Assembly: GCF_000695095.2 (NCBI RefSeq)
Contig: NZ_CP011454.1
Location: forward strand, 2,790,001 to 2,854,000
DNA from: Gemmatimonas phototrophica
GTDB lineage: Bacteria > Gemmatimonadota > Gemmatimonadetes > Gemmatimonadales > Gemmatimonadaceae
DNA: 64,000 nucleotides
Direction of reading: 5' to 3'
A program made the translations under genes and the position numbers. Below, one piece after another: positions 3,530-16,873 of the stretch (the stretch's first letter is position 1; the number at the start of each line of letters is the position of its first letter). The notes under the pieces are model-generated. The model saw only the letters and a list, made by a program, of their open reading frames with translations, made no database searches and was not told where the DNA came from.

Positions 3530-3761
3530 TGGAGTCTCTTGAGCAGGTGGTTCAGCGCTGGCGTGGCGTTCCGGCTACCGCGCCTTCCGGGCTCATCGCA
3601 TAACCGGCGTTTCCGGCCTGCACCCAGGCGCCCCGATTGGGGCAGCCTTGGAAGATAACCACAGCAGGGGTTGGGATTCAAGCCGCCCTGTATCGCAGCG
3701 CCTCCCCACCACCAGGCGTACAATAAGCAGACCATCCGTACGTGGACCTCTGCCCAGCCCC

Positions 3762-5486
3762 ATGCCCGTCGCCTACCGCTCGAACCGCCTCTTTGCTGCC
3801 GCGCTGGCCACGGCGACCCTGCTTGTGCCCGCGCTGGGGGCCCAGCCCGCGCCCAAGCCCGCCAGCGCCGTTGAAAGCGCCAATGGCATGGTGGTCTCCG
3901 CCAGCACCATTGCCAGCCAGGTAGGCCGGGACGTGCTGGCCAATGGTGGCAATGCCGTGGACGCCGCCATTGCCACCGGATTCGCCCTGGCCGTGACATA
4001 CCCAACGGCGGGCAATATTGGCGGCGGCGGGTTCATGGTGATCCGCTTTCCCGACGGCCGGGCGACCACCATTGATTTCCGGGAGCGGGCGCCCGTAGCG
4101 GCCACTCCTTCCATGTTCACCGACAGCACCGGCAATTACTCGGCTCGCCTTCACCACGGGTCGCACAAGGCGGTGGGGGTGCCGGGCACCGTTGCCGGTT
4201 TCGACCTCGCACACCAGAAGTACGGCAAGGTGACCTGGGCCAAACTGGTGGATCCCGCAGCCCGCATGGCCGATACCGGATTCATGGTCCCTGTTGGACT
4301 CGCCGCCTCGCTGGGCAGCCCACGGTTACAGGAACGCCTCGCGGCGTATCCCGCCACCATGGCGGCGTACTATCGGGCCGGCAAACCGTACGCCGCCGGT
4401 GAGCGCATGGTGCTGTCAGACCTTGGCAACACCCTGAGCCGCATTCGCGACCTGCGCCGGGACGGGTTTTACAAAGGCACCACGGCGCATCTCATCACGG
4501 CCGAAATGCGGAAAAACGGGGGGCTCATAACGGAGCAGGATCTCCTCGCGTACGAAGCAAAGGAACGCGCGCCGGTTCGGGGTATTTTCAAGGGCTACGA
4601 CGTCATCACCATGCCTCCGCCAAGCAGCGGCGGCGTGGCCATGATTGAGATGCTCAACATCCTGGAAGGACTCGACCTGAAGGGAGCCGGCCACAATTCT
4701 CCGCAATACGTGCACTGGCTGGCCGAGAGCATGCGCCGCGCCTTCCGCGACCGAGCCATTCACCTGGGCGATCCGGATTTCACGAAGCCGCCCGTTGACC
4801 GGCTCACCAGCAAGGCCTACGGCACACGGCTCCGCAGCACCATCGACGCCAACAAGGCGTCGCCGTCGTCCCCTGCCGATGTGACCCAGGGCTACGAAAG
4901 CGACGAAACCACGCACTACTCCGTGGTGGACAAAGATGGGCTGGCCGTCTCGGTGACCTACACCCTCGAAGCCGGTTACGGACTTGGTGCGGTGGTGGAA
5001 GGGGCCGGTTTCCTGTTGAACAACGAGATGGGAGACTTCAACGGCAAACCCGGACTGACGGACAGCACGGGTCTCATTGGCACCGCCCCCAATGTGGCGT
5101 CTCCCGGTAAGCGGATGCTCTCCAGCATGTCGCCGACCATTGTGGCCAAAGACGGCAAGCTCGTGGCGGTCGTGGGGAGCCCCGGTGGGCGCACCATCAT
5201 CAATACCGTGTTGCAGGTGGTGCTCAATCTGATCGCGTTCGACATGCCGGCCCAACTGGCCGTGAACGCACCGCGCCTGCACCATCAGTGGCTCCCCAAT
5301 GCCATTACGGTGGAGCGCGAGGGATTTGACGCCGCCACCCTCGACGCCCTGCGCGCCAAGGGCCATGTGGTGCGAATAGGCTCCCAGCAGGGCACGGCCC
5401 ATTCCATCGTGATCGATGCGCGCACTGGCAAGAAACTGGGCGCTGCCGACCCCCGCGATCGTGATGCCGGGGCCATTGGGCACTGA
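3762..5486 (+). CDS. ggt: Gamma-glutamyltransferase (secreted)
   Basis: Cleaves or transfers the gamma-glutamyl group of glutathione and related compounds; an N-terminal nucleophile hydrolase that autoprocesses into two subunits. Starting at 3762 gives a signal peptide (MPVAYRSNRLFAAALATATL, ending around ALGAQP); the longer upstream frame is arginine-rich and unlikely. The family region GNAVDAAIATGFALAVTYP and GNIGGGGFMVI are present, and DETTHYSVVD holds the autocatalytic/nucleophilic Thr of the small subunit, with GSPGGRTI for the oxyanion region. 574 residues, normal length. Predicted periplasmic. It stands alone, with a bidirectional terminator after it. Confidence 0.95.
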   Translation: MPVAYRSNRLFAAALATATLLVPALGAQPAPKPASAVESANGMVVSASTIASQVGRDVLANGGNAVDAAIATGFALAVTYPTAGNIGGGGFMVIRFPDGRATTIDFRERAPVAATPSMFTDSTGNYSARLHHGSHKAVGVPGTVAGFDLAHQKYGKVTWAKLVDPAARMADTGFMVPVGLAASLGSPRLQERLAAYPATMAAYYRAGKPYAAGERMVLSDLGNTLSRIRDLRRDGFYKGTTAHLITAEMRKNGGLITEQDLLAYEAKERAPVRGIFKGYDVITMPPPSSGGVAMIEMLNILEGLDLKGAGHNSPQYVHWLAESMRRAFRDRAIHLGDPDFTKPPVDRLTSKAYGTRLRSTIDANKASPSSPADVTQGYESDETTHYSVVDKDGLAVSVTYTLEAGYGLGAVVEGAGFLLNNEMGDFNGKPGLTDSTGLIGTAPNVASPGKRMLSSMSPTIVAKDGKLVAVVGSPGGRTIINTVLQVVLNLIAFDMPAQLAVNAPRLHHQWLPNAITVEREGFDAATLDALRAKGHVVRIGSQQGTAHSIVIDARTGKKLGAADPRDRDAGAIGH

Positions 5487-6740: not shown

Positions 6741-9700
6741 TTACATGCGGCGCTGCGGCCCGATGGCCCGATCCAGCTTGGCCTTCACCGCTTCCAGTTC
6801 CTGTCGCAACACAGTGTACCGCTCCAGAGCATCCTGACCAACCTTCTGGTCAGCCCGGGCGGTCATGCCTGCTAGATAGGTAATGTGTGCCTGCAGCCCC
6901 GGCTTGCCGTACCGGATGGGCTGCGTGTTCACCACCTCACTCACTTCCTTCACCTGACGGGCCGTATCCGCTGCCGCACCAGTGGCGCCCTTGTACTTCT
7001 GCTCCGCCGTGCGCACGCGGGCCAGCAACGCGTTCACGTCGGCCACCATGTCGCGCATCTTCACGTTGTGTGCGAACTGCGCCTGCAGATCGGCTTCCGT
7101 GGTGCCATCGGCGGCGAGACGCGGGTCAATACGCACCCGCAGCGGTACACTCTGGGTCTGCCCCGCCACGGTAATGCGGGCCGTGTATTGTCCCGGAGGC
7201 GCGCCCAGTCCGTTCTGGTGCTGCACGTTCCACACGAACCGGTTCATCCCGACGTTCTTCGTGACCAGGTTGAGCGTTGGGCCCGACGCCATGGCCGCGA
7301 CACCGCCACGGCCCGCCATCATAGACTCATCCGGATCGTCATCAGCTCCGCGACGGCGCGGCGGCTGTACCGGGACCACGCCACTCTTGAAACTGTTGAC
7401 CGTCTTCCCGGCCGCATCGAGAATCTCAATGCGCACCGTGTCCGCCGGGGCACTGGACAGATAGTAATCCACGGTGGGGCCGAGGTACGACTGCCCAACA
7501 TTGGTCCGGTACCCGTCTCGCGGACGGAATACGGTGAGCGCAGCGCTCGCCGTGGTGGGGCCGATCTGCTGCAGCGGCGCAATGTTGTCCAGAATCCAGG
7601 CGGCACGTCCCTGCGTGGCAATGACCAGATCGCCCTTGTGTACCCGGATGTCGTTGATGGGAATGATGGGCATGTTCAGGTTGAACGGCTGCCAGTGCCC
7701 ACCATTATCGAACGACACGTACAAGCCGAATTCCGTGCCGGCATACAACAGCCCTTCCCGCACCGGATCTTCGCGAACGACACGCACCGGTACATCGGCG
7801 GCAATGCCATTCGTCCCGTCGGTCAGCAGCTTCCACGTCTTGCCGTAATCGTTGGTGAGATAGATGTACGGCTTGTAGTCACCCAGCAGGTAGCGGTAGG
7901 TGGCGTAGTACGCCGAACCCTTGCGATGCGGCGAGGCATCAATCCACGCCACGCGGCCACCATCACCCAGCCCCTTGGGCGTGATGCGCGTCCACGTCTT
8001 CCCATCGTCGCGCGTCACCGAGAAGGGGCCGTCATTCGAGCCCGTCCAGATCACGCCCTTTTCGAGCGACGACTCGGTAATGGCGTACAGCGTGCTGTAG
8101 AACTCTTCACCCGTCACGTCGCGCGTGATGGGCTGGCCGCTGCCGCCCTGGCAGCACTTGGGGAAGGCGGTCAGGTCGGGCGAAATCTTTTCCCACGACG
8201 CGCCGTTGTTGCGCGTGCGGTGCAGGTACTGCGACCCGTAGTACAGCACCTTGGGGTCATGCGGCGACGTCGCCATGGGCGTGGTGCGCTGCATGCGGAA
8301 AATGAGATCGCCGCCATCGTTGCCATACAGCGACTGCGCGCCAATCCAGTAATTCTTGGTCACGCCCGCCTTCATGTTCATAACGGCATACTGCCCCTTG
8401 CAGTTGCCATGCACGATGTTCTCGTCGCTCGGATGCGGAATGATCGGGCCCGTTTCACACCCCGGTCCCACCCGCACCGATGCCATGTTGAACACGTTGT
8501 TCAGACTCGGCACGATGTACGTGCTGTTGTCCTGCTGCGCCATGTACAGGTTGTACGGGAACGCATTGTCGAGCCACACCCCGTAGAACTCGGCCGTGGG
8601 CTGAATGTCCTGCGAGCTCCACGTCTTGCCGCCGTCAAACGACACGTTGGCGCCGCCGTCGTTCGACTGCACCATCGTGTTCGAATTGTTCGGATTGATC
8701 CAGATATCGTGATTGTCACCGTGCGGCGTACGGAACGGCGTGACCGTCTTGCCACCATCGGTGCTCTTGTAGAACGTTTCCGCACCCGCGAACACCACGT
8801 CGGCGTTGTTCGGGTCGGTGCCCAGCGAGGTGTAGTAGAACGGACGGGTAATGAGCCCCGGCGTGCTGTTCACCATCTGCCAGCTGGCGCCGGCGTCGTC
8901 GCTGCGATACAAGCCGCCCCCCGGCAGCGCTTCCACCAGCGCATACAAGCGGTTGGGGTTGGCAGCGGTCACGCCGATGTTGCCCTTGCCGATGAGTTCA
9001 TTCGGCAGGCCATTACCGCGCAGGTTCTGCCAGGTCTCGCCGCCGTCGGTGCTCTTGTAGAAGCCCCCTTCGCGCGATCCGGAAATGATCGACCACGGCT
9101 TGCGCTCAATGCGGTTCATCCAGGCAAAGACCACATTGGGGTTGCCCGGCTGGAGCTCCACGTCCATGGCGCCCGTGCTGTCGCTCACGTACAGCGTCTT
9201 CTTCCAGGTCTTGCCACCGTCGGTGGTCTTGAAAACGCCGCGGTCGTTGTTGGGCTTGAAGATGTCGCCATAGGCGGCCACCCACACGATGTCCGGATTG
9301 GTGGGGTGAATACGCACCGCGCCGATCTGGCCGGCGTTGTAGAGCCCGCGGAATTCCCAGCTCTTGCCCGCATCGCCGGAGCGGTAGATGCCACGACCGG
9401 TGGAGACATTGGAGCGGACACCGTCCGACCCGGTGCCCAGCCAGATCACATTGGGATCGCTGTCGGCCACGGCCACGGAGCCCATGGATCCAACCGGGAC
9501 CTTATGGTCCGTGATGGGTTCCCAGCTTTCCCCGCCGTTGGTGGTGCGCCACAGGCCACCGCTCGCCACGCCCATGTAGAACGTCTTGGGCTGTGACGGG
9601 ACGCCGGTCACCGTCGTGACTCGACCGCCCCTGGAGTGACCAACCAAGCGATACGACAGCCCCTGGAACTGGGCAGGATCAACCGACGCCATGAAGGGCG

Positions 9701-9815
9701 CCTTGGGGGCCGCCGCAGGGCGGGCAGCGCGAGCGGCGGTTCGGGGGGCCTGCGCCACCGCAATTGCGGGAGCAAGGCCAATCAGAACGAGAGATGCCGA
9801 AACGGTACGGCGCAT
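6741..9815 (-). CDS. Secreted sortilin/VPS10-like Asp-box beta-propeller protein
   Basis: 1024 residues with a signal peptide (MRRTVSASLVLIGLAPAIAV, cleaved around AQA). At least nine Asp-box motifs of the S/T-x-D-x-G-x-x-W kind occur through residues 90-770 (TTNGGESWEP, SGDAGKSWEF, TTDGGKTWKK, STDGGETWQN, SDDAGASWQM, SFDGGKTWSS, TNDYGKTWKL, SFDNGGHWQP and others), a ten-bladed sortilin-type propeller layout. A C-terminal region of about 200 residues holds a beta-sandwich-like part and ends in a helical stretch. Such proteins are often called 'glycosyl hydrolase BNR' without any shown hydrolase activity. A second member begins at 63361. Its role, perhaps peptide or glycan binding outside the cell, is inference. 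Confidence 0.87.
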   Translation of the reverse strand: MRRTVSASLVLIGLAPAIAVAQAPRTAARAARPAAAPKAPFMASVDPAQFQGLSYRLVGHSRGGRVTTVTGVPSQPKTFYMGVASGGLWRTTNGGESWEPITDHKVPVGSMGSVAVADSDPNVIWLGTGSDGVRSNVSTGRGIYRSGDAGKSWEFRGLYNAGQIGAVRIHPTNPDIVWVAAYGDIFKPNNDRGVFKTTDGGKTWKKTLYVSDSTGAMDVELQPGNPNVVFAWMNRIERKPWSIISGSREGGFYKSTDGGETWQNLRGNGLPNELIGKGNIGVTAANPNRLYALVEALPGGGLYRSDDAGASWQMVNSTPGLITRPFYYTSLGTDPNNADVVFAGAETFYKSTDGGKTVTPFRTPHGDNHDIWINPNNSNTMVQSNDGGANVSFDGGKTWSSQDIQPTAEFYGVWLDNAFPYNLYMAQQDNSTYIVPSLNNVFNMASVRVGPGCETGPIIPHPSDENIVHGNCKGQYAVMNMKAGVTKNYWIGAQSLYGNDGGDLIFRMQRTTPMATSPHDPKVLYYGSQYLHRTRNNGASWEKISPDLTAFPKCCQGGSGQPITRDVTGEEFYSTLYAITESSLEKGVIWTGSNDGPFSVTRDDGKTWTRITPKGLGDGGRVAWIDASPHRKGSAYYATYRYLLGDYKPYIYLTNDYGKTWKLLTDGTNGIAADVPVRVVREDPVREGLLYAGTEFGLYVSFDNGGHWQPFNLNMPIIPINDIRVHKGDLVIATQGRAAWILDNIAPLQQIGPTTASAALTVFRPRDGYRTNVGQSYLGPTVDYYLSSAPADTVRIEILDAAGKTVNSFKSGVVPVQPPRRRGADDDPDESMMAGRGGVAAMASGPTLNLVTKNVGMNRFVWNVQHQNGLGAPPGQYTARITVAGQTQSVPLRVRIDPRLAADGTTEADLQAQFAHNVKMRDMVADVNALLARVRTAEQKYKGATGAAADTARQVKEVSEVVNTQPIRYGKPGLQAHITYLAGMTARADQKVGQDALERYTVLRQELEAVKAKLDRAIGPQRRM

Positions 9816-9939: not shown

Positions 9940-10956
9940 CTAGCGGGCGATGGCCCCCGCCTCGATGCCCTTGGCCAGGTCGAAAACCTGCCCCACCGCG
10001 CCCACCACACAGGTGGACCGGTCGAGCCCGAGCGTCCTGCGAAAGCGGTACACCACCTCCACGCCGGTACAGTGCGCGCCAATGAGCTGCCGCACGCCGG
10101 CCGCTTTGAGTCGTTGCTCTGTCCAGGCGAGGGTCTGCTCGGAGGCGTTGAACAAATGGATACCACCGATGAGCGCATGCACGTTCGCGGGACGCACACT
10201 CTCCCGCGCGTGATCGATGATGTTCACCACGCCGGCGTGACCACACCCCGTCAGCACCACCAGCCCCTGTTCCGTATCGAAGATCATCGACATGTCCTCG
10301 GGGACATTGTCTTCCAGCATGTCCGTTCCAACCTTCACCAATGCGGGGCGCGCCTGCGGATTGGACGAGCCCCAGTTGCGTTCGTTGTGCCGCCGCGGGA
10401 CCGGACCGGTAAGCCATACCCCTGGATACAATTCGGTGGGCTTGGCGTGCACCGTGAAATGCCCGCCCGTTTCCTCGTAGCGCGGGCGAAAACGATTCAT
10501 GGGATTGAGATCGTTGCTGTTGCCACTGCGTAGTCGCGGGGCGAAAATTCCCTCCCCCACATGTGCTGTCCCCAGGGCATCGGCGCGCTTGGACACGAGC
10601 TCCTTGCGGAGGGGGAGCAGACCAATCGTGTGATCGCCGTGATTGTGACTCAACACGACATCGGGCACGGTATCGAGGGCCACGTTCAGCTCACGCGCGT
10701 TGCGCGCCACCACGTCGTCGTGGGCGCCCGTGTCAAACAGCATGCGACGACCGTCCACCTCCACCAGCGCGGCAAATCCCCATTCGCCAATGCCGGCGTC
10801 GGCAAGCATGGTGGAGAGTATCGTGATACGCAGCTGACTCACCTTGCGGCGCGTCGTGGTGAACGGTGCGGCGGCACTCTGCAGCAACGACGGCATCACC
10901 GGCAACGACAAACCGGCGAGCGTCAGGTGGCGGATAAGTTCGCGACGTGATGTCAT
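9940..10956 (-). CDS. Exported metallo-beta-lactamase-fold hydrolase (COG1237-like)
   Basis: 338 residues from the ATG at 10956. The N-terminus MTSRRELIRHLTLAG carries a twin-arginine pair before a hydrophobic stretch, suggesting Tat export. The MBL metal motif is LSHNHGDHTIG (HxHxDH class), followed by GCGHAGVVNII and the late histidine in GAHCTGVE. This pattern fits the MBL group annotated with dihydropterin-aminobenzene phosphate synthases, where most members have unknown substrates. It lies 40 bases after the first D-aminoacylase-like gene and is probably the third gene of that operon. A hydrolase of a product of those enzymes is possible but unproven. Confidence 0.85.
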   Translation of the reverse strand: MTSRRELIRHLTLAGLSLPVMPSLLQSAAAPFTTTRRKVSQLRITILSTMLADAGIGEWGFAALVEVDGRRMLFDTGAHDDVVARNARELNVALDTVPDVVLSHNHGDHTIGLLPLRKELVSKRADALGTAHVGEGIFAPRLRSGNSNDLNPMNRFRPRYEETGGHFTVHAKPTELYPGVWLTGPVPRRHNERNWGSSNPQARPALVKVGTDMLEDNVPEDMSMIFDTEQGLVVLTGCGHAGVVNIIDHARESVRPANVHALIGGIHLFNASEQTLAWTEQRLKAAGVRQLIGAHCTGVEVVYRFRRTLGLDRSTCVVGAVGQVFDLAKGIEAGAIAR

Positions 10957-10996: not shown

Positions 10997-12631
10997 CTAC
11001 TGGGCGCGCAGGACCCGCCCCGGACTGGCGAGATGCTGACCATCGCGCACGGCCACCTCGCCGTTCACGATCACGGCACTAATCCCTTCCGGATACTGAA
11101 AGGGGTTCGCAAAGGTCGCCGTGTCCGCCACGGTCGCCGGATTCAACACCACCACGTCGCCAGCCATGCCCACCGCGAGTCGCCCCCGGTCGCGCAGGTG
11201 TACCCGATCAGCCGGACGTGCGGTCATCTTGTGGATCGCATCGGCAAAACTGAGCGCCTTGCGTTCGCGCACATATCTCGCCAACACGCGCGGCATCGAC
11301 CCCGCGCCGCGCGGATGCGGACTGCCACGCCGGGTCGGACCATCAACAGCAAAGGCGCCACCGTCAGAACAGACCATCGCGAAATCGTGCGCCAGCAACC
11401 GATCCAGATTGTCCTCGCTCATGGCGAACCCGAGCATACCCACTTCCAGCCGATTGCGTCGCAACAGCCCTACGGCTGCGACATAGGGATCCTCTCCGCG
11501 CGCCCCCGCCCACGCTCCCAAGCGCTTGCCTTCAGCGTCGCGGTCCACAGGGTTCTCGACCCGTGCGATTTGCACGTTGTCCCAACCGCCAATCACGTCA
11601 ACCTTCGCTAACGACTCGGTGCGAATGCGCGCAGCCGTGGCCGGATTGTCGAGCCGCGCGAGAAACGCCTCGGCACCGCCGTCGCGGGCCCAGACCGGAA
11701 ATAAATTGGTCAGGCCAGTGGAGTAGGCAATCCACGGATACACATCGAACCAGGCGTCGATGCCCGCGGCCCGTGCGTCCCGCAACCGGGCCAGAGACGC
11801 GTCGATCTTGGGCCAGTTGCGCGTGCCCTGCTGCTTGAGGTGTGAGACCTGCAACGGGCAGCGTGCGCCGCGGGACACCGCAATGGATTCATCGATCGCT
11901 TCCAGCAGCTGATCGTCTTCGTTGCGCATGTGCGTGGCGTACGGCAGCCCACGTGACGACAGCGGACGGCACAAGGCAATGAGCTCCTCCAGCGGCGCAA
12001 ACGCCCCGGGTGTGTATTCCAACCCCGTTGACGCGCCGCAAGCGCCTTCGGACAGCGCCCGCTCGACCAGCGCCGTCATCCGCGTCAACTCCGCAGCGGT
12101 CGCCTTGCGGTCCGCTTCACCAATGACCTTTGCCCGCACACTACCCAGCCCGATCATCGCCGCCACATTGATCGCGGGTTTCACACCGTTCAGCTGACGC
12201 TCCCAGTCGGCAAAGGAATCGCCGATCGCCCCGCTGAAGGAGGAGCTTCCATCCGCACCCGCGACAATGGTCGTGATGCCCTGACGGATCACCGATTCCG
12301 CGCGCGGATCCTCACGCAACGATCCATCACCGTGCGAATGGATGTCCACGAACCCGGGCGTCACCGCCAGCCCACGCGCGTCGATCTCTACGGTCCCGCG
12401 GGCGGCAAGCCGAGCACCCAATTCGCTGATGCGGCCGCCGCGAATTGCCACGTCCATTTCCCGGCCAGCGCCACCCAACCCATCAAACACGGTGCCGCCG
12501 CGCACCACCAGATCATGGGCCTGACGACCTGGCGCATGCACAAACGGCCCCATGGCTCCAAGCACCGGAATGGCGCCGAGGACGGTCGTACCCTGCTTCA
12601 CAAACTCGCGACGACTGTGTGGGCTGCTCAT
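10997..12631 (-). CDS. N-acyl-D-amino-acid deacylase family protein (Tat-exported)
   Basis: 544 residues with a twin-arginine signal (SRREFVKQG, then hydrophobic). Amidohydrolase-superfamily layout: DLVVRGGTVFDG small beta domain, then PGFVDIHSHGDG with the HxH pair at residues 98-100, THMRNEDDQL and VSHLKQQG supplying the later histidines, and MVCSDGGAF supplying the catalytic Asp. These match D-aminoacylase/dihydroorotase-like enzymes that remove acyl groups from D-amino acids. The Cys ligand of the classical enzymes is not obvious (the site reads VAGADGSS). It follows the paralogue by 11 bases. The exact substrate is unknown. Confidence 0.88.
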   Translation of the reverse strand: MSSPHSRREFVKQGTTVLGAIPVLGAMGPFVHAPGRQAHDLVVRGGTVFDGLGGAGREMDVAIRGGRISELGARLAARGTVEIDARGLAVTPGFVDIHSHGDGSLREDPRAESVIRQGITTIVAGADGSSSFSGAIGDSFADWERQLNGVKPAINVAAMIGLGSVRAKVIGEADRKATAAELTRMTALVERALSEGACGASTGLEYTPGAFAPLEELIALCRPLSSRGLPYATHMRNEDDQLLEAIDESIAVSRGARCPLQVSHLKQQGTRNWPKIDASLARLRDARAAGIDAWFDVYPWIAYSTGLTNLFPVWARDGGAEAFLARLDNPATAARIRTESLAKVDVIGGWDNVQIARVENPVDRDAEGKRLGAWAGARGEDPYVAAVGLLRRNRLEVGMLGFAMSEDNLDRLLAHDFAMVCSDGGAFAVDGPTRRGSPHPRGAGSMPRVLARYVRERKALSFADAIHKMTARPADRVHLRDRGRLAVGMAGDVVVLNPATVADTATFANPFQYPEGISAVIVNGEVAVRDGQHLASPGRVLRAQ

Positions 12632-12642
12632 GACTCGCTCCC

Positions 12643-14370
12643 CTATCGCTTGGCACCGGGGCCGAGCACCACCCGTCCCGGGGTCGCACCGGTGTGCTCA
12701 CCATTGCGCAGCACCGGCACACCATTCACAAACACGTCGCGGACTCCGGTGGCGTATTGGTGTGGCTGCTCGAACGTGGCGTTATCGCGAACGGTCGCGG
12801 GATCAAAGATCACGACATCACCATACGCGCCGGGCGTCAGTGTTCCGCGGCGCGTCAGGCGCAAATTGGTGGCCGGCAAGCTGGTCATGCGTCGCACAGC
12901 TTCCTGCAGGGTGATCACCTTGTCCTCCCGCACATACTTGCCGAGGACGCGGGCGAAGGTGCCGTAGGCGCGCGGGTGCGTATTGCTCTTGAGAAAATTC
13001 CCTTCGGGCGCCATGGATCCGGCATCCGATCCCACGCTGACCCAGGGCTTCTTCAACTGCGCGGCAATGTTGTCTTCGGTAATGATGAAATAGATCGTCC
13101 CCACCCGCGTCCCATCTTTGATCACCAGATCCATGGCCGTTTCTTCCGGACTGGTGCCGCGCAGCTTCGCGACCGCGGCCAGCGTCTTTCCGGTGTACTG
13201 TTTCAGTGAATCGGCCTTGAACCCCGACAGCACCACCCGATCCGGTGAACCTGACGCCAGCAGGAGACTCTCCCACTTGTCGGTCGGGGTCCGCATTTCC
13301 TCGGCGACCTTCCGCCGAATGGCGGGGTCCTGGAGTCGCCGCGCCCACGCGGCATACCCGCCTTCCTGCACCCAAGGCGGCATCGCGGCATCGAGACCGG
13401 TGGCGCCGGCGGTGTAGGGATAGATATCGGCAGTGATCTGCAGCCCCTGCGCGCGGACGCTGTCAATGCGGTTGAGCACCCGCGCCATCTTGGGCCAGTT
13501 GGCCTCGCCGGCAGCCTTGAGATGATAGATCTCGGCGCGAGCCCCACTTTCACGGGCAATGGTGATGAGCTCTTCGACGGCCTCCTCGAGCCGCGCCCCC
13601 TCGCTACGCATGTGTGAGATGTACATGCCGCCGTAGGGCGCTGCGGCCTTCATGAGCGCCACCAACTCATCCGTCTTGGCATAAAAGGCAGGCGCATAGA
13701 TGAGCGACGACCCCACGCCCAACGCCCCCTCCTCCATGGCCTGGCGGACTTCCTGCTGCATCGCCTCGAGCTCAACGGGGGTGGGGGCACGATCATCCCA
13801 GCCCACATGATTGATCCGCACCGTGGTGGCCCCGACGAACGACGCAATGTTCGTACTGATCCCCTTCTTCACGAGCGAATCCTGGTAACCGCGCAGCGTC
13901 CGCCAGGTGATCGGGAATTTGATATCCCCCTGTTCGGCCAGCATGTCTGCCCGCAGCGTGTCCGACAGCGGCCCCATGGAGGTGCCCTCCCCCATGACCT
14001 CGAGGGTCACGCCTTGCCGGATATCCCCCTGGCTGCGCCCGTCCTCAATGAGGGTCTCGGTGGCCCAGCTGAGCATGTTGATGAATCCGGGGGACACCGC
14101 CATTCCCGTGGCATCCACCTCCAGCGTTCCCTTCCCGGTCACCTCTCCTACCGCAACAATGGAATCGCCCCGTAGCGCCACGTCGGCCGCGACCGGGGAG
14201 TTGCCCGACCCGTCGTACACCGTACCGCCGCGGATCACCACATCGTACGCCGGGGGCGAACTGCAGCCCACGGCCAAGGCTAGAGAACAAGCCACGGAGT
14301 GAAGGACAGAACGCGCAAGCCGAGGCCTGAACGAACGCCGAAAAAGCCGAGGAAAAGGACGGCCGATCAT
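12643..14370 (-). CDS. D-aminoacylase-like lipoprotein lacking the HxH metal motif
   Basis: 575 residues from the ATG at 14370, with a lipobox LAVGC placing the lipidated Cys at residue 36. The fold matches the D-aminoacylase paralogue: YDVVIRGGTVYDGSGN, ISHMRSEG, YHLKAAGEANW and SVGSDAGSMAPEG. The usual PGFxDxHxH motif reads PGFINMLSW at residues 94-102, and the Cys that bridges zinc in studied D-aminoacylases aligns by eye with Glu128 (VMGEGTS). The two later histidines and the Asp remain, so it may bind one metal or have changed chemistry. First gene of the three-gene minus operon, divergent from sulP. Confidence 0.87.
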   Translation of the reverse strand: MIGRPFPRLFRRSFRPRLARSVLHSVACSLALAVGCSSPPAYDVVIRGGTVYDGSGNSPVAADVALRGDSIVAVGEVTGKGTLEVDATGMAVSPGFINMLSWATETLIEDGRSQGDIRQGVTLEVMGEGTSMGPLSDTLRADMLAEQGDIKFPITWRTLRGYQDSLVKKGISTNIASFVGATTVRINHVGWDDRAPTPVELEAMQQEVRQAMEEGALGVGSSLIYAPAFYAKTDELVALMKAAAPYGGMYISHMRSEGARLEEAVEELITIARESGARAEIYHLKAAGEANWPKMARVLNRIDSVRAQGLQITADIYPYTAGATGLDAAMPPWVQEGGYAAWARRLQDPAIRRKVAEEMRTPTDKWESLLLASGSPDRVVLSGFKADSLKQYTGKTLAAVAKLRGTSPEETAMDLVIKDGTRVGTIYFIITEDNIAAQLKKPWVSVGSDAGSMAPEGNFLKSNTHPRAYGTFARVLGKYVREDKVITLQEAVRRMTSLPATNLRLTRRGTLTPGAYGDVVIFDPATVRDNATFEQPHQYATGVRDVFVNGVPVLRNGEHTGATPGRVVLGPGAKR

Positions 14371-14513
14371 GTCGCGGCAGTTGGGAGTGAGGCATGGACC
14401 GCAGAACCCAGCACTTCCCAAACTTGGCACGTATGCGTCCCGTGCGTTAGGCTCTCTCGTACCTCCCTCGTGTTGCGCAGCTTCCTTTCGCAGCGCCTCC
14501 CCACGCCCCGCGC

Positions 14514-16091
14514 ATGACCACTCCTCTCCCGGCGACTCCCGCGCGTACCGCGCCCCCTCAGTTGTTTACCCATTGGCGGGACGACCTCCCCGCCTCATTG
14601 GTTGTGTTTCTGGTGGCGCTGCCGCTGTGTCTTGGCATAGCGCTCGCGTCGGGCGCCCCGCTGTTGTCGGGGGTCATTGCCGGCGTGGTCGGCGGTCTGG
14701 TGGTGGGCGCCGTGTCTGGTTCCGCCCTCATGGTGAGTGGTCCGGCCGCCGGTCTGACCGCCATCGTGCTGGCTGGCATCACGCAAGTGGGGGGCTTCCA
14801 GCGGTTTCTTCCGGCAGTCATTCTCGGCGGCGCCATTCAAGTCGCGCTGAGTGTGGCCAAGGCTGGCGTGATCGGCTACTACTTTCCGTCGGCGGTTATC
14901 AAAGGCATGCTGGCGGCAATCGGCCTGACGCTCATCCTCAAGCAGATCCCGCACGCCGTAGGCTACGACGACGACTATGAAGGCGACTTCGCCTTCATCA
15001 GTCCGTCTGGTGAGAACACCTTTGATGCCATCGGCCACGCCCTCGGTCAGGTGCAGCCCGGCGCAATTGCCGTCGCCCTCTTGGGTGTGGCCCTCATGGT
15101 CCTCTGGCCGAAGACGCCGTTCGCTCGTATCAAGCTGTTTCCAGCCCCGCTCGCGGCCGTTGCGGTCGGGGTAGGGCTGAATGAGTTGCTGTTGGCGCTC
15201 GAACCATCCTTCGCGATTCGCGGCACCCATCTCGTCTCGCTCCCCACGACGGGCTTCAGCGGCATTGCCTCACAGCTCACCCGTCCCGATTGGAGTGCGC
15301 TGGCCGACCAGCAAGTGTGGATGTTGGCCGCCACCTTGGGTATCGTGGCCAGCCTTGAGTCGCTGCTCAGTCTTGAGGCCACCAACAAGCTCGACCCCGA
15401 AAAGCGCGATGCGCCCGCCAACCGGGAACTGCTGGCGCAGGGGCTTGGCAACATGATCTCGGGTTTCTTTGGCGGACTGCCAGTCACCGGTGTCATTGTC
15501 CGCAGTTCCGCCAATGTGGATGCGGGTGCCAGGACACGACTTTCGGCGCTCGCGCACGGCGTGCTGCTGGTCCTCGCCGTTGTGGTGATTGCTCCGGTAC
15601 TCAACCGTATTCCGCTGGCCGCATTGGCCGCCGTGTTGCTGGTCACCGGCTTCAAGCTCACCGCACCCGCCCTCTGGAAGAGCGCGTGGCGTCTGGGAAC
15701 GGCTCACTTCGTGCCCTTCGCCGTTACCATTGTGGCAATTCTGTTTACCGACCTGCTCAAAGGCATCGCGGTCGGTCTGGTTGTTGGCCTTGGCTACATC
15801 CTCGCTGAACACATGCGCCGCCCCGTGCTGACCAAGGTCAGCCCGCCCGGTGCCGTGCTGACGCGATATTTGTTGCCGGACCAGCTCACGTTCCTCAGCA
15901 AAGCGAGCCTGATGAACGTACTCGACGCGTTGCCCGAAGGGACGCGTGTGGAGATTGATGGACGCAAGACATCACGCTTCGACTACGATGCGCTGGAGGC
16001 GCTGATCGGGTTCCGTGAGACAGCGCGCACCAAGAACATCGACTACCGGCTCGTGGGGATTCCCGAGACCGACCTCACGCCTGCGCACTAA
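14514..16091 (+). CDS. SulP-family anion transporter (likely bicarbonate)
   Basis: 525-residue polytopic membrane protein. It opens with HWRDDLPASLVVFLVALPLC and GIALASGAPLLSGVIAGVVG, the SulP first helices, and continues with many hydrophobic segments through about residue 440. The C-terminal cytosolic tail is short (about 85 residues) and only resembles a reduced STAS domain. SulP proteins move sulfate, bicarbonate or other anions. The beta-carbonic anhydrase starting 11 bases after its stop favours bicarbonate, because such sulP-can pairs are widespread; this is inference. First gene of a three-gene operon ending at a strong terminator. Confidence 0.9.
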   Translation: MTTPLPATPARTAPPQLFTHWRDDLPASLVVFLVALPLCLGIALASGAPLLSGVIAGVVGGLVVGAVSGSALMVSGPAAGLTAIVLAGITQVGGFQRFLPAVILGGAIQVALSVAKAGVIGYYFPSAVIKGMLAAIGLTLILKQIPHAVGYDDDYEGDFAFISPSGENTFDAIGHALGQVQPGAIAVALLGVALMVLWPKTPFARIKLFPAPLAAVAVGVGLNELLLALEPSFAIRGTHLVSLPTTGFSGIASQLTRPDWSALADQQVWMLAATLGIVASLESLLSLEATNKLDPEKRDAPANRELLAQGLGNMISGFFGGLPVTGVIVRSSANVDAGARTRLSALAHGVLLVLAVVVIAPVLNRIPLAALAAVLLVTGFKLTAPALWKSAWRLGTAHFVPFAVTIVAILFTDLLKGIAVGLVVGLGYILAEHMRRPVLTKVSPPGAVLTRYLLPDQLTFLSKASLMNVLDALPEGTRVEIDGRKTSRFDYDALEALIGFRETARTKNIDYRLVGIPETDLTPAH

Positions 16092-16102
16092 CCGGAGCCG
16101 CC

Positions 16103-16873
16103 ATGGAAAACTTCCGCAAGATCATTCAGCACAATCATGAGTGGGCCGCCGCCATGAAGGCCGCTGACCCGGACTTCTTCGAGAAGCGAGCCGGCAAACA
16201 GGAGCCCCAATTCCTGTACATTGGCTGCTCCGACAGTCGGGTACCTGCAGACGCCGTAACCGGAACAGAACCGGGCGAACTGTTCGTGCACCGCAACATC
16301 GCGAATGTCGTGCTGCCCAGTGATCTGAACGTCATGTGCGTGCTGCAGTACGCCGTCGAAGTGCTCGATGTGAAGCACGTGATTGTCACCGGCCACTACA
16401 ACTGCGGCGGCGTCAAGGCGGCGATGGGGACCGCCAGCTATGGATTGGTGGACCTGTGGCTACAACCCATCCGCAACGTGGTGCGCTGGAACAAGCCCGA
16501 ACTGGACCAGATTCAGGACGAACAGTCGCGATTTGACCGCGTGGTTGAGCTCAACGTACTGGAGCAACTGTACCATCTTTCGGAAACGCCCATCATCCAG
16601 AACGCCTGGGCCAAAGGGCGCCGGCCGCTGTTGCATGGTTTGGTGTACGACATTCACGAAGGGCTGCTGCGCGAGATTGCCACGGGCGTGGATTCTCAGG
16701 AGGCGGCTGATGGTCTCGCGCAGCGACGGCAATCCGGGGTACCGGCAGGGCCGCCTCCCATTATGGGACGCATTGGAGGGCCTGTCCTTGTGGGCGACGA
16801 ACTCGCCGATCAGATAGCCAAGCGCGTCATGGATCGCATGGCCGCAGGCGCGAAGGACGCCTCCAAGAAGTAG
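16103..16873 (+). CDS. can: Beta-carbonic anhydrase
   Basis: 256 residues. Interconverts CO2 and bicarbonate. Zinc ligands are visible: Cys42 in GCSDSRVPA with the Asp44-Arg46 dyad, and His98 and Cys101 in TGHYNCGGV. The internal ELFVHRNIANVV motif is typical of the clade. The C-terminus has an extra stretch (GVPAGPPPIMGRIGG) beyond the usual about 215 residues. A GGAG ribosome-binding site sits just before the ATG. No signal peptide, so cytoplasmic. It is coupled to the upstream SulP transporter, suggesting coordinated bicarbonate supply or pH control. Confidence 0.95.
   Translation: MENFRKIIQHNHEWAAAMKAADPDFFEKRAGKQEPQFLYIGCSDSRVPADAVTGTEPGELFVHRNIANVVLPSDLNVMCVLQYAVEVLDVKHVIVTGHYNCGGVKAAMGTASYGLVDLWLQPIRNVVRWNKPELDQIQDEQSRFDRVVELNVLEQLYHLSETPIIQNAWAKGRRPLLHGLVYDIHEGLLREIATGVDSQEAADGLAQRRQSGVPAGPPPIMGRIGGPVLVGDELADQIAKRVMDRMAAGAKDASKK

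Follow-up and report, generated by a model that had tools for sequence, protein, structure and literature searches.

An HxH-less D-aminoacylase-like protein of the Gemmatimonas group and its putative one-metal Glu/His/His site

Can a D-aminoacylase-like protein that lacks the paired histidines (HxH) of its family still hold a metal and act as a hydrolase? The question is raised by P0001, a 575-amino-acid protein encoded on the minus strand at 12643..14370 of the window (the whole stretch of 64,000 nucleotides that we analyzed), with an alternative GTG start at 14430. The protein matches PF07969 (E 5.1e-16; Amidohydro_3, 59.6 bits, above the gathering score of 29.7) and solved D-aminoacylase relatives; its 238.7 bits against the NCBIfam model PRK09061 (NF006560) lie below the curated cut-off of 340. 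Scans for promoters and terminators found no signal stronger than in shuffled sequence. The genome of the window is a single contig of 4,716,552 bases, and those of its closest relatives that bear a name carry the label Gemmatimonas or Gemmatimonadetes.

In the minus-strand frame, residues 94-102 (...AVSPGFINMLSWATE..., 14065..14091) read PGFINMLSW in place of PGFxDxHxH, as the first-pass annotation had pointed out, and Leu100 and Trp102 stand opposite His67 and His69 of AfDam (PDB 1m7j, 1rjp, 1v4y), which we take to be the D-aminoacylase of Alcaligenes faecalis. That annotation had also put a glutamate at the position of the "zinc-bridging Cys" of studied D-aminoacylases. Glu128 (13987..13989, minus strand) does lie in the Cys-bearing loop (...TLEVMGEGTSMGP...; the segment holding it is LEVMGEGTSMGP), but HMMER and MAFFT align it with Asn95 of AfDam: the sequence G-N-C-G becomes G-E-gap-G, leaving the loop one residue shorter, and to speak of a Cys swapped for Glu is loose wording, because the Glu aligns at Asn95 and Cys96 is deleted. 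The loop was placed by HMMER with a single sequence, by HMMER with a 69-sequence profile, and by MAFFT alignment of the relatives. Nor did the word "bridging" hold, since in PpOngB, a related deacetylase, the Cys is a ligand of a single beta-site zinc (PMC12017989, in excerpt). The later His and Asp residues are retained, as had been claimed: His253 (13612..13614) and His283 (13522..13524) are equivalent to the AfDam metal ligands His220 and His250, and Asp449 (13024..13026) to the catalytic Asp366. Also present, and on the minus strand like all of these, are the residues of the carboxylate clamp, namely Lys285 (13516..13518), Tyr317 (13420..13422), and Arg467 (12970..12972), which correspond to AfDam Lys252, Tyr283, and Arg377. 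Tyr225 (13696..13698) matches Tyr192 of AfDam and Tyr194 of PpOngB, a residue in contact with the substrate carbonyl according to the excerpt of PMC12017989.

Relatives were collected by a scan with one genome per species, which confirmed 187, and conservation was counted over the covered columns in P0001 plus the best 80 of the 187. In this set, His253, Lys285, Tyr317, Asp449, Arg467, and Tyr225 are each found in 81/81 sequences and His283 in 80/81; Asn98 and Glu128 each occur in 79/79, which argues that the motif change did not arise by chance. Position 100 holds Leu, Met, or Ile in 79/79, and position 102 is occupied by Trp (70 sequences), His (8), or Gln (1). The best 80 of the 187 carry labels from at least six phyla (Gemmatimonadota, Bacteroidota, Acidobacteriota, Planctomycetota, Verrucomicrobiota, Pseudomonadota, and others) and are mostly metagenome bins, whose individual taxon labels may be wrong. 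A match to P0001 with E 1e-130 or better is present in 129 of 200 Gemmatimonadota genomes. At 56% identity or more there are 51 matches in 50 of these 200 genomes, the next ones reaching only about 48%, and N-x-L-S-W is found in 29/29 motifs read out of the 50 such matches besides P0001. Matches extend to 40/99 sampled genomes of the phylum of locus L023 (labelled Acidobacteria) at 1e-100 and to 20/99 of that of L037 (labelled Cyclobacteriaceae) at 1e-95. Single in-frame stop codons lie within some matches (L096, L174, L180, and L232). All 20 relatives fetched at 41-48% identity have the Glu loop together with the His, His, Lys, Asp, Arg, Tyr, and Tyr residues; their strand-1 motifs include DMLGQ, DIQGQ, DMLGW, DIQSH, DIQAQ, DMLGH, DIQSG, DIQDQ, and DILGQ, with an intact DLHSH in 1 of the 20. 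Judged from these sequences, P0001 belongs to a large, well-preserved bacterial group in which HxH loss and the Glu loop go together.

We considered whether P0001 might be a degenerate copy or an assembly error, which is ruled out by the recurrence of the motif in relatives from many genomes and by the constraint on the gene. Nei-Gojobori estimates, rough since dS is 1 or more, gave a dN/dS of 0.06-0.09 for P0001 against eight distinct Gemmatimonas-group loci (430 codons; ten loci were run, two being repeats) and of 0.10-0.16 for its neighbour with an HSH motif against six distinct loci (402 codons; two neighbour genes were not found by the search pattern). The P0001 gene is under purifying selection, and from these values the HxH-less gene appears to be the more constrained of the pair.

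An AlphaFold2 model of P0001, built on a 69-row alignment, has a mean pLDDT of 94.4. By our own count, its strands 1, 2, 5, 6, and 8 end at residues 98, 126, 253, 281, and 446, and Glu128, His253, His283, and Asp449 lie at or just beyond the ends of strands 2, 5, 6, and 8, respectively; Glu128, just past barrel strand 2 (121-126), is our proposed third metal ligand, given its conservation and this modelled secondary structure. The best solved matches among those listed are nine D-aminoacylase-type entries (TM to target 0.87-0.93, Z 55.0-56.1), with rmsd values of 1.8-2.8 over 466-473 aligned residues. The model resembles AfDam over 468 residues (Z about 56, rmsd 1.8-1.9, 35% identity) and, with Z 55-56 each, the N-acyl-D-glutamate deacylase of Bordetella bronchiseptica (3gip) and the GlcNAc1A deacetylase PpOngB (9kb1, 9kb3). 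Dihydroorotase, the next fold match listed, follows far below at Z 34.2, and NagA is absent from the sequence and fold matches listed for P0001. By its fold, two His ligands, catalytic Asp, and carboxylate and acyl anchors, P0001 fits the D-aminoacylase family (subtype V, beta-mononuclear), from which it departs in the Cys ligand and in HxH.

What do these relatives imply for a site without HxH? AfDam and P0001 have in common the two His ligands, the catalytic Asp, and the Lys/Tyr/Arg clamp, whereas AfDam has HxH and a GNCG loop with its Cys ligand where P0001 has LxW and the shorter G-E-G. In the available part of PMC12017989, PpOngB is described as proven beta-mononuclear and active with one zinc on Cys97, His222, and His252, while Lys254, Tyr285, and Arg379 bind the carboxylate, Tyr194 the carbonyl, and Asp368 serves as catalytic acid/base; P0001 has an equivalent for each of these residues except the Cys. 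According to earlier work cited in the same excerpt, AfDam is less active when a second metal occupies the alpha (HxH) site, and the title of entry 1v4y says likewise. Changing His68 or His70 in the HxH of PpOngB to Ala nevertheless abolished activity, though no metal is bound there (PMC12017989, in excerpt). Precedent for a site without HxH comes from NagA, as far as the excerpted sources go: the E. coli enzyme has QxN instead of HxH and one beta-site metal (PMC3880350, PMC6016474), and His143 is proposed as the compensating residue in one-metal NagAs (PMC3880350); the CE9 site consists of Glu/His/His, plus HxH where it is binuclear (PMC12017989); the metal-coordinating residues of K. pneumoniae NagA are E131, H143, H195, and H216 (PMC12409433); and a mycobacterial NagA tolerates a change to QxN, at the price of a sevenfold rise in Km, but is inactive as AxA (PMC6016474). 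A one-metal beta site, Glu/His/His ligands, and a replaced HxH thus come together in E. coli-type NagA (CE9, subtype IV), and the sequence of P0001 contains a Glu and two His residues that may serve likewise. The two differ in that NagA belongs to another branch of the superfamily and takes its metal-ligand Glu from strand 3, whereas in the P0001 model the Glu comes from the end of strand 2. P0001 would then have reached a NagA-like site on a different scaffold. A residue compensating for HxH in the manner of NagA His143 was sought among 30 group-specific positions, and none was clear.

Among the relatives, loop type and the state of HxH go together. In a set of 237 rows with a readable strand-1 motif (including two solved D-aminoacylases, some overlapping pieces of one gene, and the window's neighbour three times), HxH is intact in 17/17 Cys-type and 42/42 Asp-type rows and in 4/177 Glu-type rows; one row with HxH, L085, has no assigned loop type. 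Of the 177 Glu-type rows, 149 have neither His, 24 only the second, none only the first, and 4 both. The Fisher value for this contrast, 2e-51, treats related and partly repeated rows as independent; like the other Fisher value given below, it describes a contrast and not its cause, because the rows are non-independent and the tree shows a single origin of the Glu loop. A thinned set of 144 proteins, which includes Glu-type rows with HxH added from a motif search, agrees, with HxH intact in 16/16 Cys-type, 32/32 Asp-type, and 7/95 Glu-type rows. Gathering relatives by their similarity to P0001 biases the set towards the Glu type, so sampling by DNA motif was added. Across 61 Gemmatimonadota genomes it gave 87 hits, 61 of them family-like, with HxH in 55 and without it in 6. 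The loop could be read in 16 of the 55 and was Asp-type in all, the others only fitting the pattern, and the 6 HxH-less hits, which matched via GEGG, were all Glu-type. Across the Glu type, the two HxH positions hold Leu, Gln, Met, or Ile and Trp, Gln, His, Gly, Ser, or Asp, respectively. A search of 200 genomes for the Glu loop together with HxH found six places in five genomes, and in 6/6 the Glu loop lies within a long open frame. Rare natural intermediates of this kind are L138, L194, L208, L193, L250, and L246. The last, with L247, L248, and L251, comes from a group in one Gemmatimonadota genus that has a GES loop, HTH, and a later His motif HLFHFK; the usual HMR-like pattern was not found in this group.

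In a tree of the 144 proteins, made by a quick search with the columns of both motifs left out, 95/95 Glu-type rows form one clade with an SH-aLRT support of 93, and in an earlier tree of 136 proteins 92/92 did so with a support of 89. Since 6/7 of the HxH-keeping Glu rows branch near the base of this clade, albeit with weak support between branches (23-80), the sequences suggest that the Glu loop probably arose first and that HxH was lost afterwards; loss of the first His before the second would be the simplest order. Among these basal rows sits one without HxH, L189, and the seventh HxH-keeping row, L138, is nested within the clade, where it may represent a regain of HxH or a misplacing. In total, HxH changes state 0 times among Cys- and Asp-type rows and 8 times among Glu-type rows, a count in which two Glu rows and L085 were still untyped.

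Taken together, it seems likely that P0001 is an exported, probably lipid-anchored, and active amidohydrolase of the D-aminoacylase branch with a remodelled one-metal Glu/His/His site, whose substrate would be an N-acylated D-amino acid or a D-residue peptide. A single divalent metal, probably zinc, would occupy the beta site, held by Glu128 past strand 2, His253 in strand 5, and His283 past strand 6, and the alpha site would be gone. Asp449, past strand 8, would activate the water and protonate the leaving amine, while Lys285, Tyr317, and Arg467 would grip the alpha-carboxylate of the substrate and Tyr225 would contact its carbonyl; it is this clamp and carbonyl contact that point to an N-acylated D-amino acid or a peptide containing a D residue. 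What was directly observed is conservation, the joint occurrence of the Glu loop and HxH loss, the predicted fold, the phylogeny, and purifying selection; that Glu128 binds the metal, how many metals there are, and which reaction and substrate are involved is inferred. The placing of Glu128 at AfDam Asn95, and not at the Cys, in the linear alignment counts against this reading, and so do the inactive HxH variants of PpOngB and of mycobacterial NagA and the lack of a clear counterpart of NagA His143. Of the two options in the first-pass annotation, a changed single-metal site gains indirect support from clade-wide conservation, the coupling, and the NagA precedent; nothing speaks positively for a different reaction, as P0001 retains the residues that in studied relatives hold the acyl group and the alpha-carboxylate.

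A second reading overlaps with the first, keeping the one-metal site and changing only the substrate class, for instance to an N-acylated amino sugar acid, to a D-residue dipeptide, or to a peptidoglycan fragment. We regard it as possible, if tentative. PpOngB, close in fold, acts on GlcNAc1A (PMC12017989, in excerpt), the side-chain pocket of P0001 differs from that of AfDam (Phe191 to Ile224, Met254 to Ala287), and the gene product appears to be exported. However, the acetamido and carboxylate anchors are the same as in the studied relatives, which makes it probable that P0001 cleaves the same kind of bond, and specificity is not readable from sequence.

Could P0001 instead have given up catalysis and serve the active paralogue next door? 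This HSH paralogue (10997..12631, minus strand), whose ATG lies 11 bases past the P0001 stop, is possibly on the same transcript. It is of the same family (36-38% identity) with the same His/Lys/Asp/Arg set and differs from P0001 in keeping HxH and in its Asp-type GADG loop and SRREFV signal. The first-pass description of this neighbour as retaining HSH thus holds (PGFVDIHSHG), but it too is without the Cys and has Asp there. In 19/80 loci (best 80 of 187) the flank contains another member of the family, always on the same strand: directly downstream in 12 Gemmatimonas-group loci, L071, and L038, and upstream by about 1.5 kb in L041, L043, and L056 and by about 2.4 kb in L052; the L079 flank has a weak partial match, perhaps a portion of the gene itself. 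On the tree, the partners in Gemmatimonas, L038, and L041 belong to separate Asp-type groups (support 50 for the L041 group), a hint of repeated pairing between P0001-like and Asp-type genes that is not proof of a partnership. These nearby paralogues, together with the essential HxH of PpOngB in the excerpt of PMC12017989, would favour a pseudoenzyme that lost hydrolysis with HxH and now acts as a binder of acylated D-amino acids or of partner molecules and as a regulator of the HSH paralogue; loss of HxH could mean lost hydrolysis because both the His-to-Ala variants of PpOngB and the AxA variant of mycobacterial NagA are inactive in those excerpted sources. On the other hand, each of the remaining catalytic and ligand positions is conserved in 80 or 81 of 81 sequences (P0001 plus the best 80 of 187), dN/dS is below that of the HSH neighbour, and 61/80 loci (best 80 of 187) have no paralogue in the available flank, many flanks being short. 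On balance, we judge a pseudoenzyme unlikely.

Beyond the family, we found no conserved operon: the top neighbour cluster reaches at most 12/81 neighbourhoods (P0001 plus the best 80 of 187) and consists of antisense frames over the genes themselves, and clusters shared with the window come mostly from Gemmatimonas-group loci. Directly following the HSH paralogue on the minus strand is a metallo-beta-lactamase-fold protein (9940-10956, PF00753) with a Tat-like start, SRRELIRHL, and next on the same strand a 1024-amino-acid Sortilin-Vps10/BNR-repeat protein (6741-9815). Sortilin-like genes form a cluster in 7/81 neighbourhoods (P0001 plus the best 80 of 187), including the window and two Bacteroidota-labelled loci. 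On the plus strand are a gamma-glutamyltranspeptidase (3648-5486, PF01019), some kilobases from both D-aminoacylase-like genes, and what is presumably a SulP-type transporter-like ORF (14514-16873), followed 11 bases on by a presumed beta-carbonic-anhydrase-like ORF. Elsewhere on the chromosome are at least five further paralogues, all five with HxH (G000:C1 at 1632125, 2857177, 404737, 3973004, and 4424061).

A rebuilt two-metal site, in which Glu128 forms the bridge and an alpha metal is bound by Asp449 together with Asn98 or some other residue, would fit the invariance of Asn98, which replaces the usual Asp in the NMLSW clade (79/79, P0001 plus the best 80 of 187), and the second His kept in 24/177 Glu-type rows, but both HxH positions vary across the Glu type, unlike a metal site, and Asn98 is not common to the rest of the Glu clade, so that we consider it improbable. 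A metallo bile salt hydrolase is ruled out, since those have HxH and a proposed carboxylated Lys in the excerpt of PMC13081902.

The route of export provides a further contrast between the loop types. Export of P0001 is supported by its N-terminal sequence, where a hydrophobic stretch is followed by a lipobox-like Cys36 (ALAVG-C-SS, 14263..14265, minus strand); the lipobox is not of the strictest form because its -3 residue is Ala, and only a looser pattern accepts it. The N terminus also reads RRSFRP, an RRxF that fails the strict Tat form only. With patterns rather than a trained predictor, and with strict Tat defined as an RRxF that precedes the domain and is followed by a fitting residue, the strict Tat motif occurs in 12/15 Cys-type, 22/42 Asp-type, 0/4 Glu-type rows with HxH, and 2/173 other Glu-type rows, and the strict lipobox in 2/15, 5/42, 1/4, and 76/173, respectively. 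In the thinned set, strict Tat is found in 11/14, 13/32, 0/7, and 2/88 of the same classes, RRxF alone in 5/88 other Glu-type rows, and a loose RR in 12/14, 20/32, 2/7, and 22/88; an earlier loose count had 49 RR motifs in 168 exported-looking Glu rows. The looser RR patterns and the RRSF of P0001 itself weaken the Tat contrast between types, whose Fisher value, 3e-23, again ignores that rows are related and in part repeated. Proteins exported by Tat travel folded and already loaded with metal, whereas Sec-exported ones acquire it outside the cell, a setting that endangers a Cys ligand. The contrast in the Glu clade fits such a metal-loading reading, although counting cannot test it because it reflects a single evolutionary event. 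A simpler scheme, in which Cys-type proteins are cytoplasmic and exported ones changed their Cys, was not supported, as the sampled Cys-type relatives mostly have export-like N termini too.

It is tempting to speculate, and doubtful enough to be offered only as a working idea, that the Glu-type clade, spanning many phyla, evolved a one-metal Glu/His/His site once, by deletion of the Cys in the strand-2 loop. HxH, essential elsewhere, would then have become expendable and eroded, starting with its first His, with export moving alongside from Tat to Sec/lipoprotein. Most Glu-type proteins are presumably annotated as ordinary D-aminoacylases or amidohydrolases. Among the matches listed from the open PMC literature (titles and abstract openings), no description of a Glu-type, HxH-less D-aminoacylase group was found; the NMLSW-type motif itself gave nothing there, and for Gemmatimonas deacylases there was one listed match, a comparative-genomics paper (PMC11596202). 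Such silence, which covers mostly open-access papers and the matches listed, is weak evidence of novelty. If the idea is true, the Glu type would constitute a separate metal-site subtype that is convergent with NagA. It would also bear on the puzzle posed by PpOngB, in which HxH is essential although the one zinc needed sits at the other site (PMC12017989, in excerpt). The clade and its relatives offer natural stages with HxH and Cys, HxH and Asp, HxH and Glu, one His and Glu, and no His and Glu, and both the role of HxH and the stepwise rebuilding of a metal site are therefore open to direct test.
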